DNA of 64,000 nucleotides from the NCBI RefSeq assembly GCF_028686475.1, contig NZ_JAQUCA010000009.1, positions 1-64,000 on the forward strand, in the 5' to 3' direction. The translations under genes and the position numbers were made by a program. The stretch is from Giesbergeria sp. (GTDB lineage Bacteria; Pseudomonadota; Gammaproteobacteria; Burkholderiales; Burkholderiaceae_C). Positions 18,575 to 24,639 of this stretch are shown piece by piece (positions within the stretch are counted from its first letter, which is position 1; every line of letters starts with the position of its first letter). The notes under the pieces are model-generated. The model was not told where the DNA came from. It made no database searches and saw nothing but the letters and a program-made list of their open reading frames with translations.

Positions 18575-19207
18575 TCAGGGCTTGGTGCCTTCTGGGAAGG
18601 GCCAAGCGGCCTTTTCGTTGAGGGTGGTTTTTACCACTGGGGCGGTAGTAGTTTTGCTGGCTTTTTTGGCCGCTGGCGCTTTGGCGGGTGCTGGAGCAGC
18701 GACTGGGGCAGGTGCCGGAGCCGTCGTTTTCTTGGCAGCGGGTGCTTTTTTGGCAGCGCTGGCCTTCTTGGCGGGTGCGGGTGCTGGGGCGGCCACTGCT
18801 ACGGGAGGCTCGGCCACTGCGGCTTTGGGGGCGGCAGCCTTTTTGGCCGCTGCTTTTTTGGCCGGTGGTGCCGGTGCAGGAGCTGGCTCTGTGGCAACTG
18901 GAGCTGCTGCGGCGGCTTTGGGGGCGGCAGCCTTTTTGGCCACTGCTTTCTTAGCCGGTGCCGGTGCAGCAGCAAGCTCTGCTACGGCTTCGGCGACAAC
19001 GGCTTTTTTGGCCGGAGCCGCTTTTTTGGCCGCCGTTTTGCTGGCTGGAGCGGCTTTTTTGACCTCAGTGGGTGCAGGCGCAGGGGCAGCTACCGCAGGG
19101 GCGACTGTTTCAGCCGCCACCGTTTTTTTGACAGCTGCTTTTTTGGCCGGGGCCGTTTTTTGCGGGGTTTCGGCCTTGGGGGCCGCAGGTTTCTTGGCAG
19201 TTGCCAT
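18575..19207 (-). CDS. Histone H1-like Ala/Lys/Pro-rich DNA-binding protein
   Basis: 210 residues made almost only of Ala, Lys, Pro, Val and Thr with repeated KKAAAPKAAA, APAKKA and PAPAPA units. No other domain is visible. Such proteins resemble histone H1 tails and the HctA/AlgP-type nucleoid proteins of beta- and gammaproteobacteria, and probably bind DNA non-specifically. Two ATGs are adjacent (19210 and 19207); the second has the better distance from AGGAGA. The repeats are degenerate and GC-rich, so copy number may vary between strains. It lies immediately outside attR and is not phage-like in composition. Confidence 0.8.
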   Translation of the reverse strand: MATAKKPAAPKAETPQKTAPAKKAAVKKTVAAETVAPAVAAPAPAPTEVKKAAPASKTAAKKAAPAKKAVVAEAVAELAAAPAPAKKAVAKKAAAPKAAAAAPVATEPAPAPAPPAKKAAAKKAAAPKAAVAEPPVAVAAPAPAPAKKASAAKKAPAAKKTTAPAPAPVAAPAPAKAPAAKKASKTTTAPVVKTTLNEKAAWPFPEGTKP

Positions 19208-19321
19208 CATGTTCTCCTTGGTACGGTAAGCAAACGCGCTGCCACCTGCCAACCCTTGGGGGTAGCACAGCAGCAGAACGAGAAAAGGAAAGTCATGGGG
19301 GTGCCGTGGTGTGTAGGGGAT

Positions 19322-20554
19322 TCAATCCCAAGACAGGGCACCGCCCGACTGGTATTCAATCACGCGGGTTTCAAAGAAGTTGCGTTCCTTTTTCAGATCG
19401 ATCATCTCGCTCATCCAAGGGAAGGGGTTTTCTTCGTGCGGAAACAACGCTTCTAGGCCGATTTGGGTGGCGCGACGGTTGGCGATATAGCGCAAATAGC
19501 CTTTGAACATGGACGCATTCATGCCCAGCACGCCACGCGGCATGGTGTCTTCGGCATAGGCATATTCCAAATCGACAGCGTGCAAAAACAGTGCTTTGAT
19601 TTCTTCTTGGAAACTGGCAGTCCAGAGGTGCGGGTTTTCTAGCTTGAGCTGGTTAATCAGGTCAATGCCAAAATTGCAGTGCATCGACTCATCGCGCAAA
19701 ATGTATTGGTATTGTTCAGCCGCGCCGGTCATTTTATTTTGCCGCCCCAGCGCCAAAATTTGCGTAAAACCGACGTAGAAGAACAGCCCTTCCATCAGGC
19801 AGGCAAACACAATCAGGCTCTTGAGCAGCGTTTGGTCGGTCTCGGCAGTGCCGGTTTTGAAGGCCGGGTCCATGATGGCCTCGATGAACGGAATCAGGAA
19901 CTGGTCTTTGTTGCGGATGGACGGCACTTCGTTGTAGGCGTTGAAGATTTCGCCCTCGTCCAGCCCCAATGATTCGACAATGTATTGGTAGGCGTGGGTG
20001 TGGATGGCTTCTTCAAACGCTTGGCGCAGCAAAAACTGGCGGCACTCGGGCGCGGTGATGTGGCGATAGGTGCCCAGCACGATGTTGTTGGCCGCTAGGC
20101 TGTCGGCGGTGACAAAAAAGCCCAGATTGCGCTTGACGATGCGGCGCTCATCCTCGGTCAGGCCGTTGGGGCTTTTCCAGAGGGCGATGTCGCGCGTCAT
20201 GTTGACTTCTTGCGGCATCCAGTGGTTGGCGCAGGTGGCGAGGTACTTTTCCCAAGCCCATTTGTATTTGAACGGCACCAGCTGGTTGACATCGGTTTGG
20301 CCGTTGATGATGCGCTTGTCAGCCGCATTCACGCGGCGCTGGCTGCCGGTGTTGGCCAGCACCGGGGCCGCTGGCATGACTGCTGGCGCTGCTGGTGCCG
20401 AAGGGGCAGCCACGCGCACGGTGGGCGCGGGCATGGCCTGAAAATTCAGCGGTGAAAACTCTGTGGGCGACAACGCACCCCAGCGGTTTTTAGGCAGACC
20501 GTTGTCGTGTGGTTTTTGCAGTGTGGGCGTGACGTCTTCGTCCCAAGTCAACAT
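19322..20554 (-). CDS. nrdB: Ribonucleoside-diphosphate reductase subunit beta (class Ia)
   Basis: 410 residues. Ferritin-like diiron protein that makes the tyrosyl radical for NrdA. Metal and radical residues are visible in [13 protein letters not shown] (Glu, His and the radical Tyr with the same spacing as E. coli E115-H118-Y122), and EEAQ/ME-type helices follow ([23 protein letters not shown]). The Tyr argues against a class Ic enzyme. Residues 35-75 are an Ala/Pro-rich insertion near the N-terminus. ATG 20554 gives MLTWDEDV; an upstream ATG at 20605 is less likely. It lies 95 nt downstream of nrdA. Confidence 0.93.
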
Positions 20555-20649
20555 AGATTTTCCAATGCTCGAATTATGAGAGCAGCGCTTGCAAATGGAA
20601 AGCATCCAAGCGCTGTACGGTGGGGGTTTTTACGCTTTTATGACCAAAT

Positions 20650-23600
20650 TTATTGGCAGGCTTCGCAACCGGGGTCGTCAATGGCGCAAAAGCGCACATC
20701 GGTAGCGGGTGCTTCTGGTGCTTCTAGCGCAGTAGCTGCCGCTGGGGCCGAGGCCACGGCGTTGAGGTGCTGGCGCTGTACGGTACTCATTTCGGCGTGG
20801 GTGGCGCTTTGCGTGCGCAGGTAGTAGGTGGTTTTGAGGCCACGCAGCCAAGCCAGCTTGTAGGTTTCGTCGAGCTTTTTGCCCGAAGCACCCGCCATGT
20901 AGATGTTGAGGCTTTGCGCTTGGTCAATCCATTTTTGGCGACGCGAGGCGGCCTCTACCAGCCAAGTGGGGTCAATCTCAAAGGCGGTGGCATACAGGGC
21001 TTTGATGTCGGCAGGCACCCGGTCAATCGCGTGCAAGGAGCCTTTGAAATACTTGAGGTCAATCAGCATCGCCTCATCCCACAGCCCTAAGCGTTGCAGG
21101 TCACGTACCAAGTAATGGTTGATGATGGTGAATTCGCCCGATAGGTTCGATTTGACGGACAAATTGCCAAACGAGGGTTCAATCGAGGCATCCACACCCA
21201 CAATGTTGGAGATGGTGGCGGTGGGGGCAATGGCGACGCAGTTGGAGTTACGCATCCCATCGCGGGCAATTTTGGCGCGCAGCGCATCCCAATCTAAAGT
21301 TTGCGAGCGCTCTACTTCGACATAAGCACCACGGGCTTGGGCCAGCAAATCAATCGAATCTTTGGGCAAGATGCCCCGGCTCCACAAAGAACCGTCGTAG
21401 CTGGAGTAGCGCCCACGCTCGGCGGCCAACTCGGTCGAGGCCCAGTAAGCGTAATAGCAAATGGCTTCCATTGAGCGGTCGGCAAACTCCACCGCTGGCA
21501 TGGAGGCATAGGGCAGGCGCAAGGCATACAGTGCGTCTTGGAAGCCCATCAGCCCCAAACCCACTGGCCGATGGCGCAAATTGGACTCGCGCGCTTTGGG
21601 CACGGCGTAGTAGTTGATGTCAATCACGTTGTCCAGCATTCGCATGGCCGTGCGAATGGTGCGCTGGAGCTTGTCGTGGTCCAGCTCTTTGCCGTGCGGG
21701 CCATCTTTCAGATGCTGCGCCAAATTGACCGAACCAAGGTTACAAACGGCGGTTTCGGTGTCGCTGGTGTTCAGGGTCACCTCTGTACAGAGATTAGAGG
21801 AGTGGATAACCCCCACATGCTGCTGTGGCGAGCGCACATTGCAGGCATCCTTGAAAGTAATCCACGGGTGGCCGGTCTCGAACAGCATGGTCAGCATCTT
21901 GCGCCACAGGTCGGTGGCTGGCAGTACGCGGTGGTGGGGGATTTCGCCCCGGTCGGCTTGGGCTTCGTAAGCCACATAAGCGCGTTCAAACTCAGCGCCA
22001 AACAGCTCGTGCAAATCGGGCACATCCGAGGGCGAGAACAGCGTCCAGCGGCCTTTTTCCATGACACGCTTCATGAACAGGTCTGGAATCCAGTTGGCGG
22101 TGTTCATGTCGTGCGTGCGGCGGCGGTCATCGCCGGTGTTTTTACGCAGCTCCAAGAACTCTTCGATGTCGAGGTGCCAAGTTTCCAGATAGGTACAGAC
22201 GGCCCCTTTGCGTTTGCCGCCGTTGTGCGCCAAACCGGCTACGGTTTGGTAAGACGCATCGACATCTACTTTCAAATCCACCACCAGCGGCTTGGGCGTG
22301 ATGGGACGCACGGCCCGCACGCGCGAGAACAACACGCCATCGCGCACCAGCCAATTGCGTTTGCCCACGGCTTGGCAGCCTACACGTTCTGCCAAGGCTG
22401 GGATGGCCGGAATACGTAAATCAATACTGGTGCTGCTACCGTCAAATACGGCTTGCGAACCATCGGAACGCTGGCCGGTATGGTGGTGCTGGCGGGTACG
22501 CTTTTGGCCAGACACCGGCACACCCAAGCGCAGCAATTGGTAACGCACCCCGTGGGCCAGCGGCTCGGAAGCCGAGGTGAAAGTCAACTCTTTGCCACGC
22601 GCAACACAGCCGTCGGTTTCTAGCAAGCCTTGCAACAGCGCCAGCGTTTGCGTGGTGGGCAAATGGCTTAGGCGGGGGGCAATGCGCTTTTGGTGTTGCG
22701 CGTCGTACAAATCATCATGGGTAAAGGGCAAGGTGGGCGCTCCGGCACCCACCATGCGCCCGGTGGTGCCATCGCGCAATGCGCCTTGACCTGCCGCCCA
22801 GTGGATTTGGACATAGGTGCTGCCACGGGCTGTTTCCCAGTAATGGAAGCCACGCGCCTCCAGATAATGACGCACAAAGGCCAAATGCGTGTCGCGCTGC
22901 GGGTTGCCGGAAACACCCCACTGTTGCCCCTCTTTAGACAGATGCCCATCCCCGAGCAAAATGCCATAGAGCCGGGCATCGTCTTCGTCTAGGCCCTGCA
23001 CCGGAACGACTTCGGTGGGAATAGCAAAGCCGATGTAATCGCCCGTCTGCAACTGGCCAGAATCGACCCAACGCGCGGTTATTTTGCCCTTGTCCAGCCA
23101 AGCCTCGGTGCGTGCATTGGCCTGCCCCAAAGGTACGCCTTGAATCGCCCAGAAGGGATGCGCGTCGGTCACTTCCAGTGGCTCGATAGCGTGTTTGACC
23201 TCAATCGCCACCATAGGGTCAGTCTGGTTATAGACCATGCGCTGCGTTACTGCGCGATACTGGCCGCTGTGGCCCAGCACCAAATCACCGGCATGGATGT
23301 CGCGCAGTGGGCGCGGCCCGGTGGCCGTATAGACCAAGGTATCGGGGGCAAAGCACTGGTTTACCGCTACGGCGGTATCGTTGACCACCTTCAAAAACGG
23401 CACCACGCCTTGCGATTCGCCATTCGTGCCTTGGATATGGCTGCCCAGTGCGCGCACGCGCGTCCAGTCGTTGCCCAAGCCACCGGCAAACTTGCTCAAC
23501 AGGGCGTTTTCTTTGATGGATTCGTAGATGCCGCCCAAATCGTCGGGCACGGTGGTTAAGTAGCAGCTGGACAACTGCGAGCGCAACGTGCCGCTGTTGA

Positions 23601-24639
23601 ACAGCGTGGGCGTGCTGCTCATAAAGTCAAAGCGCGACAGCACCTCGTAGAACTCAATCGCGCGCGCTTCGCGGTCGCTTTCTTGCAAGGCCAGCCCCAT
23701 CGCCACGCGCATAAAGAAGGCTTGTGGCAACTCAATGCGTTGCTTGCGTACATGCAAAAAGTAGCGGTCGTACAGGGTTTGCAGGCCCAAGTAATCAAAT
23801 TGCAAATCGCGCGTTGGTTGCAAGGCTGCCGCCAAACGCGGCAGGTCAAATTGCAACAGCTCGGGGTTAAGCAATTGTTCTGCCACGCCCTTTTGGATAA
23901 AACTGGGGAAGTAATCGGCATAGGCGTTGGCCATATCGGCCAAGGCCACCTCGCGGCCCAGCACTTCGCGCGTCATGGTGTGCAGCAACAGCCGGGCGGT
24001 GGCATAGGTGTAATCGGGGTGCTGCTCAATCAGGGTGCGGGCGGCCAAAATGGCGGCTTTATAAACTTCCTCTAGCGGCACGCCGTCGTAGAGGTTACGC
24101 AAGGTTTCTTGTACGATAGGCTCGGGCTGCACCTCGGGCGGCAGGCCAGTGCAAGCATCGGCCATCAGGCGTTGTAGGCCCTGCATGTCCAAGGCCACCA
24201 AGGCACCATCTTGTTGTAGCACCTGTAAGGGGGCCACTGGGGCTTGGGTGTCGGCCTCGGCTTGGGCGGCGGCGCGCTCTTGGGCGCGGCGCTCACGGTA
24301 CAGCACAAAGGCGCGCGCCACTTCTTGGTGGTCGGAGCGCAACAATTGCAGCTCGACTTGGTCGCGCACATCGTCAATATGGAACGTGCCGCCTTCGGGG
24401 CGCGAACGCAGCAGGGCATAAACTACTTTTTCTGTCAGGCTGGCGATTAACTCGCGCAAACTGGCCGAAGCATCTCCTTGGCTGCCCGAGACGGTTAAAA
24501 ATGCCTTGGTGACGGCAATGGCGATTTTGGCGGGCACAAAAGGCACCACATCGCCGGTGCGCCGCTGAATTTGGTAGCGAGAAAAGTCCACGTCAGCAAA
24601 GAAAGTAGCAACAGAAGAAGTCGAGGTAGCGGTGGGCAT
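20650..24639 (-). CDS. nrdA: Ribonucleoside-diphosphate reductase subunit alpha with intein
   Basis: 1329-residue precursor; 951 residues after removal of the intein. It reduces ribonucleotides to deoxyribonucleotides together with NrdB. An N-terminal ATP-cone (about 20-110, IQRRTGDVVPF...) provides allosteric activity control. The 10-stranded barrel carries SSNLCTEVTLN, with the thiyl Cys within N-L-C-T-E, and SSTPTLFNSGT and SSCYLTTV with a redox Cys. The C-terminus ends CEACQ, a CxxC for turnover. The intein interrupts the conserved AVNQ|GGKRKGAVC segment. Candidate NrdR boxes and a long hairpin lie upstream. Confidence 0.95.
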   Translation of the reverse strand: MPTATSTSSVATFFADVDFSRYQIQRRTGDVVPFVPAKIAIAVTKAFLTVSGSQGDASASLRELIASLTEKVVYALLRSRPEGGTFHIDDVRDQVELQLLRSDHQEVARAFVLYRERRAQERAAAQAEADTQAPVAPLQVLQQDGALVALDMQGLQRLMADACTGLPPEVQPEPIVQETLRNLYDGVPLEEVYKAAILAARTLIEQHPDYTYATARLLLHTMTREVLGREVALADMANAYADYFPSFIQKGVAEQLLNPELLQFDLPRLAAALQPTRDLQFDYLGLQTLYDRYFLHVRKQRIELPQAFFMRVAMGLALQESDREARAIEFYEVLSRFDFMSSTPTLFNSGTLRSQLSSCYLTTVPDDLGGIYESIKENALLSKFAGGLGNDWTRVRALGSHIQGTNGESQGVVPFLKVVNDTAVAVNQCFAPDTLVYTATGPRPLRDIHAGDLVLGHSGQYRAVTQRMVYNQTDPMVAIEVKHAIEPLEVTDAHPFWAIQGVPLGQANARTEAWLDKGKITARWVDSGQLQTGDYIGFAIPTEVVPVQGLDEDDARLYGILLGDGHLSKEGQQWGVSGNPQRDTHLAFVRHYLEARGFHYWETARGSTYVQIHWAAGQGALRDGTTGRMVGAGAPTLPFTHDDLYDAQHQKRIAPRLSHLPTTQTLALLQGLLETDGCVARGKELTFTSASEPLAHGVRYQLLRLGVPVSGQKRTRQHHHTGQRSDGSQAVFDGSSTSIDLRIPAIPALAERVGCQAVGKRNWLVRDGVLFSRVRAVRPITPKPLVVDLKVDVDASYQTVAGLAHNGGKRKGAVCTYLETWHLDIEEFLELRKNTGDDRRRTHDMNTANWIPDLFMKRVMEKGRWTLFSPSDVPDLHELFGAEFERAYVAYEAQADRGEIPHHRVLPATDLWRKMLTMLFETGHPWITFKDACNVRSPQQHVGVIHSSNLCTEVTLNTSDTETAVCNLGSVNLAQHLKDGPHGKELDHDKLQRTIRTAMRMLDNVIDINYYAVPKARESNLRHRPVGLGLMGFQDALYALRLPYASMPAVEFADRSMEAICYYAYWASTELAAERGRYSSYDGSLWSRGILPKDSIDLLAQARGAYVEVERSQTLDWDALRAKIARDGMRNSNCVAIAPTATISNIVGVDASIEPSFGNLSVKSNLSGEFTIINHYLVRDLQRLGLWDEAMLIDLKYFKGSLHAIDRVPADIKALYATAFEIDPTWLVEAASRRQKWIDQAQSLNIYMAGASGKKLDETYKLAWLRGLKTTYYLRTQSATHAEMSTVQRQHLNAVASAPAAATALEAPEAPATDVRFCAIDDPGCEACQ
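22222..23355 (-). other. LAGLIDADG intein within NrdA (378 residues)
   Basis: Starts with Cys1 (CFAPDTLVYTATGPRPLRDI), has block B TDAHPFW, a homing-endonuclease core with two LAGLIDADG-like helices (LYGILLGDGHL and LLQGLLETDGCV), and ends with a block F/G segment VVDLKVDVDASYQTVAGLAHN (His-Asn end). Boundaries are set by the intact NrdA motif NQ|GGKRKG. The residue after Asn is Gly, not the Cys/Ser/Thr that standard splicing needs. Size and two endonuclease motifs suggest a full, mobile intein rather than a mini-intein. Confidence 0.9.

Follow-up and report, generated by a model that had tools for sequence, protein, structure and literature searches.

All three classes of inteins reach a branch on a Cys, Ser or Thr at position +1, the first residue of the C-extein, and type A BIL domains lacking a nucleophile at this position can also splice, as outlined in an excerpt of PMC4031507. 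The route proposed for these BILs in the same excerpt runs through an N-terminal thioester, the cyclization of the Asn and an attack by the freed amine; cleavage dominates among their products, and one BIL spliced only after its +1 residue had been changed to Cys (PMC4031507). A-type BILs sit in hypervariable regions of non-conserved proteins, according to an extract of PMC7765530, and mostly cleave.

NrdA, the large subunit of ribonucleotide reductase (RNR), is also a known host of mobile elements. In phage Aeh1, NrdA is split by mobE and is nonetheless fully functional, as reported in extracts of PMC2988022 and PMC3653736; there, separate genes result from a free-standing endonuclease gene and no self-splicing is involved. 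The NrdA of Azotobacter chroococcum (Achr_15980) carries at amino acids 442-800 an intein with a LAGLIDADG-3 endonuclease, conserved in A. vinelandii (Avin_33290), as described in the extract of PMC4465626. This Azotobacter intein lies at about the same residue as the one studied here (Gln442|Gly443 of 5im3_A) and has a LAGLIDADG-3 endonuclease, but it differs in having 359 residues; the likeness is one of position as given in the text, and its +1 residue is not discussed in that extract (PMC4465626). An intein in loop 2 of NrdA may thus already be on record with Azotobacter. An RIR1 entry of A. vinelandii was reportedly classed in InBase as a BIL.

The nrdA gene of Giesbergeria sp. analysed here carries an intein followed by Gly, and the element probably represents a mobile, class 1-like lineage at NrdA loop 2 that splices without a side-chain nucleophile from the C-extein. 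This Gly+1 family sits in an enzyme of DNA synthesis, which is the sole such enzyme found in several genomes. What is new here is the breadth of the family, its invariant Gly+1 and the argument from genomes with a sole RNR. Among the titles and abstract starts of the matches listed in the open-licence literature, no paper on a Gly+1 homing intein appeared, which is a weak negative.

The intein in loop 2 of NrdA

The window, meaning the whole stretch of 64,000 nucleotides of Giesbergeria sp. DNA that was analysed, includes a nrdA gene with an in-frame intein (Table 1). The intein begins with CFAPDTLVY and ends with SYQTVAGLAHN, with NQ before and GGKRKG after it, and its removal would leave an extein of 951 residues (1329 minus 378). 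On the minus strand, codons 22219-22221, 22222-22224 and 22225-22227 read GGC (Gly), AAC (Asn) and CAC (His). The coordinates, the 951-residue extein and the Gly+1 of the original prediction all agree with this direct reading of codons, and its account of a complete intein, with Cys1, a block B (T63-D-A-H66), two LAGLIDADG-type stretches and a His-Asn end, is confirmed. Around the intein, Pfam places the ATP-cone, Ribonuc_red_lgN (all-alpha) and Ribonuc_red_lgC (barrel) domains of NrdA. Two LAGLIDADG-type stretches are visible within it (Pfam LAGLIDADG_3, E 2.9e-10), whose Asp136 and Asp248 presumably have a catalytic role in the endonuclease.

Table 1. Features of the nrdA locus, in positions of the window
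Feature	Position	Strand	Evidence
nrdA (large subunit of ribonucleotide reductase) with its in-frame intein	20650..24639	minus	open frame of 1329 codons; Pfam domains around the intein
Intein, HINT splicing domain with LAGLIDADG endonuclease, 378 residues	22222..23355	minus	translation, Pfam, predicted model, Foldseek
N-extein of NrdA	23356..24639	minus	frame and Pfam
Gln-1, last N-extein residue	23356..23358	minus	aligns with Gln288 of 3hnc_A (hand-counted alignment)
Cys1, N-terminal nucleophile	23353..23355	minus	51/51 distinct inteins
Block B, T63-D-A-H66 (TxxH)	23158..23169	minus	Thr63 and His66 in 51/51
Asp136, acidic residue of the first LAGLIDADG-type stretch	22948..22950	minus	Asp in 47/51
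Asp248, acidic residue of the second LAGLIDADG-type stretch	22612..22614	minus	Asp in 46/51
Asp360 of block F, at F:4, the position of Cys in class 3 inteins	22276..22278	minus	Asp in 51/51
A367-S368-Y369-Q370-T371, Ala replacing the usual F:13 His	22243..22257	minus	S-Y-x-T invariant
His377-Asn378, end of block G	22222..22227	minus	His in 49, Ser in 2; Asn in 51/51
Gly+1, first C-extein residue, codon GGC	22219..22221	minus	codon reading; Gly in 51/51
C-extein of NrdA	20650..22221	minus	frame and Pfam
Neighbouring frame, putative NrdB (small subunit), by inspection of the sequence alone	19322..20605	minus	open frame

The boundary of the intein is unique, since an upstream shift would require HN to equal NQ and a downstream shift would require CF to equal GG. 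The empty site reads AVNQGGKRKG in all 23 intein-free loci (L008-L030) of the same genus and family. A shifted boundary, one of the explanations initially offered for the Gly, is therefore excluded, and a misread +1 codon, named at the time as a possible refutation, falls away with the GGC read directly and the Gly+1 of all 51 inteins compared below. Adjoining the putative nrdB, the minus-strand frame at 18575-19252 encodes 225 residues with Ala/Lys/Pro-rich repeats and a histone H1-like look.

An AlphaFold model of the intein, built on 29 aligned sequences with that of the window first, has a mean pLDDT of 90.1 and a pTM of 0.88. Its top Foldseek matches are TliVMA (7qsu, E 1.4e-18), PhoVMA and PI-SceI (1ef0), and the predicted structure resembles a HINT splicing domain bearing a LAGLIDADG endonuclease. 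By sequence, no PDB chain matched the intein at E up to 1. Against general intein models, the window protein scores 13.4 bits for TIGR01445 (cut-off 24.5) and 28.3 for Hint_2 (cut-off 28.4), and neither TIGR01443 nor Intein_splicing is among the matches listed for it. Among 29 relatives searched at E up to 1, Intein_splicing matches 15 (best 6.3e-07), TIGR01443 matches 1 and LAGLIDADG_3 matches all 29. Removal of the insert at the RNA level was considered and rejected, as Rfam at the gathering threshold shows only a tRNA in the whole window.

The intein interrupts NrdA between the residues equivalent to Gln442 and Gly443 of 5im3_A, which we take to be the RNR chain of Pseudomonas aeruginosa, and to Gln288 and Gly289 of 3hnc_A, presumably the human chain, as it fits published RRM1 numbering (both positions were hand-counted on the printed alignment). 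Loop 2 comprises residues 285-295, and in the yeast enzyme its Gln288 and Arg293 are crucial in recognizing the substrate, as stated in an extract of PMC3483043. As read from the alignment, the intein splits this loop, through which the specificity signal reaches the active site. Because the cut comes directly after Gln288, a substrate-recognition residue, ligation should matter.

An intein family with invariant Gly+1

In the genus, at least 7 of 26 genomes have the intein, that of the window included (one copy is partial and one is broken across two frames). Strong matches were found in 6 of 399 genomes of the order and 9 of 369 genomes of the class, the window's genome being counted each time, and the window itself was the sole strong match in 398 genomes of the phylum; the other matches of these searches (18 of 24, 9 of 18 and 14 of 15, respectively) were weak or partial, to other Hint or LAGLIDADG proteins, and were left uncounted. 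When the orders surrounding two of the class matches were searched, the intein was present at least partly in 6 of 201 genomes in one and in 22 of 63 in the other, centre genomes included, with 11 of 17 and 2 of 24 matches, again weak or partial to other Hint or LAGLIDADG proteins, left uncounted. A scan of named genome contigs, which overlap partly with the earlier genomes, yielded 17 loci, all 17 with HN|GGKRKG. The carriers include Giesbergeria anulus, Macromonas bipunctata and Simplicispira psychrophila, together with drafts that bear the names Polaromonas, Comamonas, Sphaerotilus, Lautropia and Thiotrichaceae.

All loci were pooled and cut at AVNQ and xxKRxGA with the +1 position left free, giving 51 distinct inteins with a lowest pairwise identity of 42%. 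Left out were two loci with a two-frame break (L007, L070), three partial ones (L006, L160, L197) and L161/L173, the 52nd intein. Cys1, Thr63, His66, Asp360 (F:4), Asn378 and Gly+1 are each found in 51/51, as are Ser368, Tyr369 and Thr371, and the penultimate position holds His in 49 inteins and Ser in the other two. The original prediction had proposed aligning RIR1 inteins inserted at NQ/GG sites for their +1 residues; for this NrdA intein family, such an alignment gives Gly throughout.

Position 367 was equated with F:13 because it is spaced in the same way as the F:13 His in the intein of L086. That intein, from a genome of the class and in a protein read as DnaE, has Ser+1, ends in DHSYQTSSFAVHN|S and shares the S-Y-x-T stretch; an apparent start of a second intein lies further on in L086. 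At F:13, the 51 inteins have Glu (38), Ala (6), Arg (5) or His (2), with Glu, Ala or Arg in the 49 whose penultimate residue is His and His in the two with penultimate Ser. These two, L159 (G1226) and L196 (G1394), are Gly+1 inteins that end in Ser-Asn with His at F:13, the opposite of the arrangement in the other 49. Judging from such residues, the assisting His may swap place between the penultimate position and F:13. Both penultimate-Ser inteins may share one origin, the swap being a single event. The 52nd intein (L173, G1313), which lies at the same site in a divergent NrdA, has 310 residues, Gly+1 and His at both F:13 and the penultimate position.

Class 1 inteins with a LAGLIDADG endonuclease, such as PI-SceI and TliVMA, are like the NrdA intein in the combination of HINT domain and endonuclease (as modelled), in Cys1, TxxH, Asp at F:4 and, mostly, the His-Asn end, as well as in a conserved functional site and a patchy distribution, but the NrdA intein has Gly+1 and, in 49 of 51 cases, a residue other than His at F:13. 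Class 1 is defined by Cys or Ser at position 1, where Cys is found in 51/51, and by Cys, Ser or Thr at +1, where Gly is found in 51/51. On account of this Gly, the intein is not filed as class 1, and as Gly has no side chain, transesterification at +1 cannot occur. Class 2 combines Ala1 with Cys+1, where Cys1 and Gly+1 are present here. Class 3 inteins, with a WCT motif, a block F Cys at F:4 and no N-terminal nucleophile, likewise depart from the class 1 route; the NrdA inteins instead have Cys1 and Asp at F:4 in 51/51. Moreover, no Cys column other than Cys1 is conserved in 30 intein sequences, which rules out the class 3 route.

To our knowledge, A-type BIL domains lack a homing endonuclease. 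The NrdA family shares with them a non-nucleophilic +1 residue (Gly in 51/51) and the His-Asn end (49/51, with two Ser-Asn) and by analogy may share the amine attack proposed in the excerpt of PMC4031507, but it occupies conserved loop 2 and not a hypervariable site, interrupts a housekeeping enzyme whose empty site is fixed and bears an endonuclease domain (LAGLIDADG_3 in 29/29). In the broad sense, it has the attributes of an intein, namely a predicted HINT fold, an in-frame insertion at a conserved site and relatives with an empty site, and we infer its excision with ligation of the exteins from the genomes that have NrdA as sole RNR.

The +1 residue is set by the host, as the Gly-Gly belongs to NrdA, and the intein family has lived with this pair. 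A second NrdA intein (SNLC|CMTAD...ITKN|TEI, Thr+1) lies beside the Gly+1 intein in L005, L063, L076 and L153, and another (EIAV|CFPAGT...VVHN|CNLGS, Cys+1) in L145. Since these second inteins in the same NrdA have an ordinary +1 residue, the missing nucleophile belongs to the site and lineage and not to the hosts.

Dependence on NrdA and candidate splicing routes

Other RNRs were surveyed in 33 chosen intein-bearing genomes (first 20, then a set of 17 that shared 4 with these and so added 13, mostly well assembled), most of them drafts, with absence judged by PF02867 and NRDD family searches. A second PF02867 RNR is present in 14, including the window's genome, and absent from 19; among the latter, NRDD is matched in 6 and unmatched in the remaining 13. 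NrdA is the sole RNR found in 11 genomes (G507, G736, G583, G1383, G1384, G1392, G1393, G1395, G1398, G1403 and G1404), one of which, G1393, consists of one contig and is rated 100% complete. Two irregular cases come in addition, G489 with an interrupted NrdA C-terminus and G530 with an extra NrdA fragment nearby. A search for RTPR-type RNR in 7 genomes, including G507, G583 and G736 of the 11, gave a weak match inside NrdA in 6 and nothing in one. The SSC, NLCxE, VCNL, YYLR and CEACQ-tail stretches, which we take to be functional landmarks of NrdA, are present in 13/13 genomes checked, the 11 included.

In the 11-13 of 33 genomes without another detected RNR, a working NrdA has to come from the precursor, whereas splicing need not be obligatory in the 14 that have another PF02867 RNR, the window's among them. 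The early suggestion that another RNR supplies the activity thus holds some ground in Giesbergeria, which has a second PF02867 gene on contig C30, but it does not extend to these 11-13 genomes. Judging from the gene content of the carriers, it is very likely that removal of the intein leaves a working NrdA by some route.

Ratios of dN/dS (Nei-Gojobori) were obtained for 13 pairs over the endonuclease and over two parts each of the splicing domain and the exteins. They are at or below 0.2 in 53 of 61 region-by-pair ratios and above it in 8, namely four for the N-extein (0.21-0.27), three, reaching 0.41, for the short C-terminal part of the splicing domain and one for the decayed endonuclease of L067/L076, with synonymous sites near saturation in several pairs. 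Purifying selection predominates in the intein as well as in the exteins. For L067/L076, a pair from Sphaerotilus, dN reaches 0.249 in the endonuclease against 0.016 in the N-terminal splicing part, and L076 has a shortened intein of 309 amino acids with endonuclease motifs lost or altered and splicing residues intact. Similarly, G1392 (L198/L210) and G1404 (L199/L209) have a 315-residue intein in which the first endonuclease motif was not found and the second is altered, the splicing residues being kept. Because splicing residues persist where the endonuclease has decayed, selection seems to act on intein removal and not on homing alone.

The residues for thioester formation and Asn cyclization are kept (51/51, and penultimate His in 49/51) and the +1 nucleophile is absent in 51/51, which favours a route by way of the freed amine. 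By analogy, we consider it rather probable that the Gly+1 intein splices by amine attack on the thioester, as proposed for A-type BIL domains. The unusual route suggested at the outset also gains from the sole-RNR genomes, as far as their gene content indicates. In a first step, Cys1, aided by Thr63/His66 and Asp360, would convert the Gln-Cys bond to a thioester, and in a second one Asn378, aided by His377, would cyclize and release the C-extein with a Gly N-terminus; the residues are seen and the reactions presumed. The folded halves of NrdA would then keep the unhindered Gly amine by the thioester, as may happen in A-type BILs, and its attack would restore loop 2 with its native Gln-Gly bond and expel the intein. 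In general, Asn-Gly is the residue pair most prone to cyclization, and the amine of Gly is the least hindered. The endonuclease would spread the element and splicing would keep the host alive. The predicted junction peptide of ligated NrdA is ...NDTAVAVNQGGK, its tryptic form being VVNDTAVAVNQGGK or a local variant.

The mainly cleaved products of BILs count against the amine route here. The chances appear even that the family amounts to a fourth splicing class, a mobile lineage that has long been without a +1 nucleophile, uses an efficient direct amine attack adapted to the Gln-Gly of loop 2, does so in an enzyme indispensable to its hosts and places its His at the penultimate position or at F:13. 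If the intein splices cleanly, efficient amine-attack splicing exists in nature, and inteins might serve at Xaa-Gly sites, with no Cys, Ser or Thr left behind.

Alternatively, the intein could only cleave at both ends, the N- and C-fragments of NrdA reassembling unligated into a working enzyme. Such activity of cleavage products, already raised in the original prediction, stays unlikely. It would need the same conserved residues, domains without a +1 nucleophile mainly cleave, and the split but fully functional NrdA of phage Aeh1 (extracts of PMC2988022 and PMC3653736) means that ligation is not proven necessary; against it, the break would fall inside loop 2, at Gln288|Gly289, which links the specificity and catalytic sites. 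Since a single open frame was a condition of the search that gave the 51 inteins, they have no bearing on natural gene fission at this site.

It is quite improbable that a residue of the intein itself, for instance Ser368 or Thr371 of block F, replaces the +1 nucleophile, with the branched ester resolved by the freed Gly amine. The invariance of Ser368, Tyr369 and Thr371 would suit such a role, but the S-Y-x-T of the L086 intein, albeit a single example, accompanies a normal Ser+1, so the stretch is not tied to the loss of the +1 nucleophile.

For the window's genome, one could suppose that the intein does not splice, that NrdA is lost and that the other RNR supplies deoxynucleotides. The second PF02867 gene makes this conceivable, yet very improbable, as dN/dS is low in exteins and intein of same-genus pairs, there are relatives that share the intein and in which no further RNR was detected, and the second RNR is itself intein-bearing. 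Finally, there is next to no chance that Gly+1 is an artefact of a boundary shift, a misread codon or an assembly error, for which no supporting point was found and which is refuted by the relatives (51/51 Gly+1, 23/23 NQGG empty sites) together with the unique parse and the GGC codon.

Spread of the element and further inteins

In a tree built from the NrdA proteins of 26 carriers and 23 intein-free hosts (49 in total), unevenly sampled and with all empty sites from the window's family, intein presence requires 6 changes (5-7 over bootstraps). G240 is a genome from a different family; its intein clusters with those found in the window's family, whereas its host NrdA does not. This mismatch and the changes on the tree fit homing and loss. 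A viral origin of the intein was examined as well and rejected, as a scan of viral contigs with two conserved peptides gave no relative and searches of phage and plasmid proteins gave only partial matches at about 28-35% identity, in three phage records (two of one phage) and one plasmid.

The Giesbergeria genome has further inteins of its own. The other RNR on contig C30 (L032:2122-3243; class II by reading, found by the PF02867 search) bears a 374-residue intein, NP|CVTGDT...FNGLVSGQ|CGEQ, which ends in Gly-Gln and not His-Asn and is a second atypical intein in the same organism. On contig C37 (L095), a frame of 1476 amino acids, read as GyrB-like, has an intein running apparently from Ser1 to His-Asn, with Thr+1. 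From these readings, the genome seems to contain at least three inteins.
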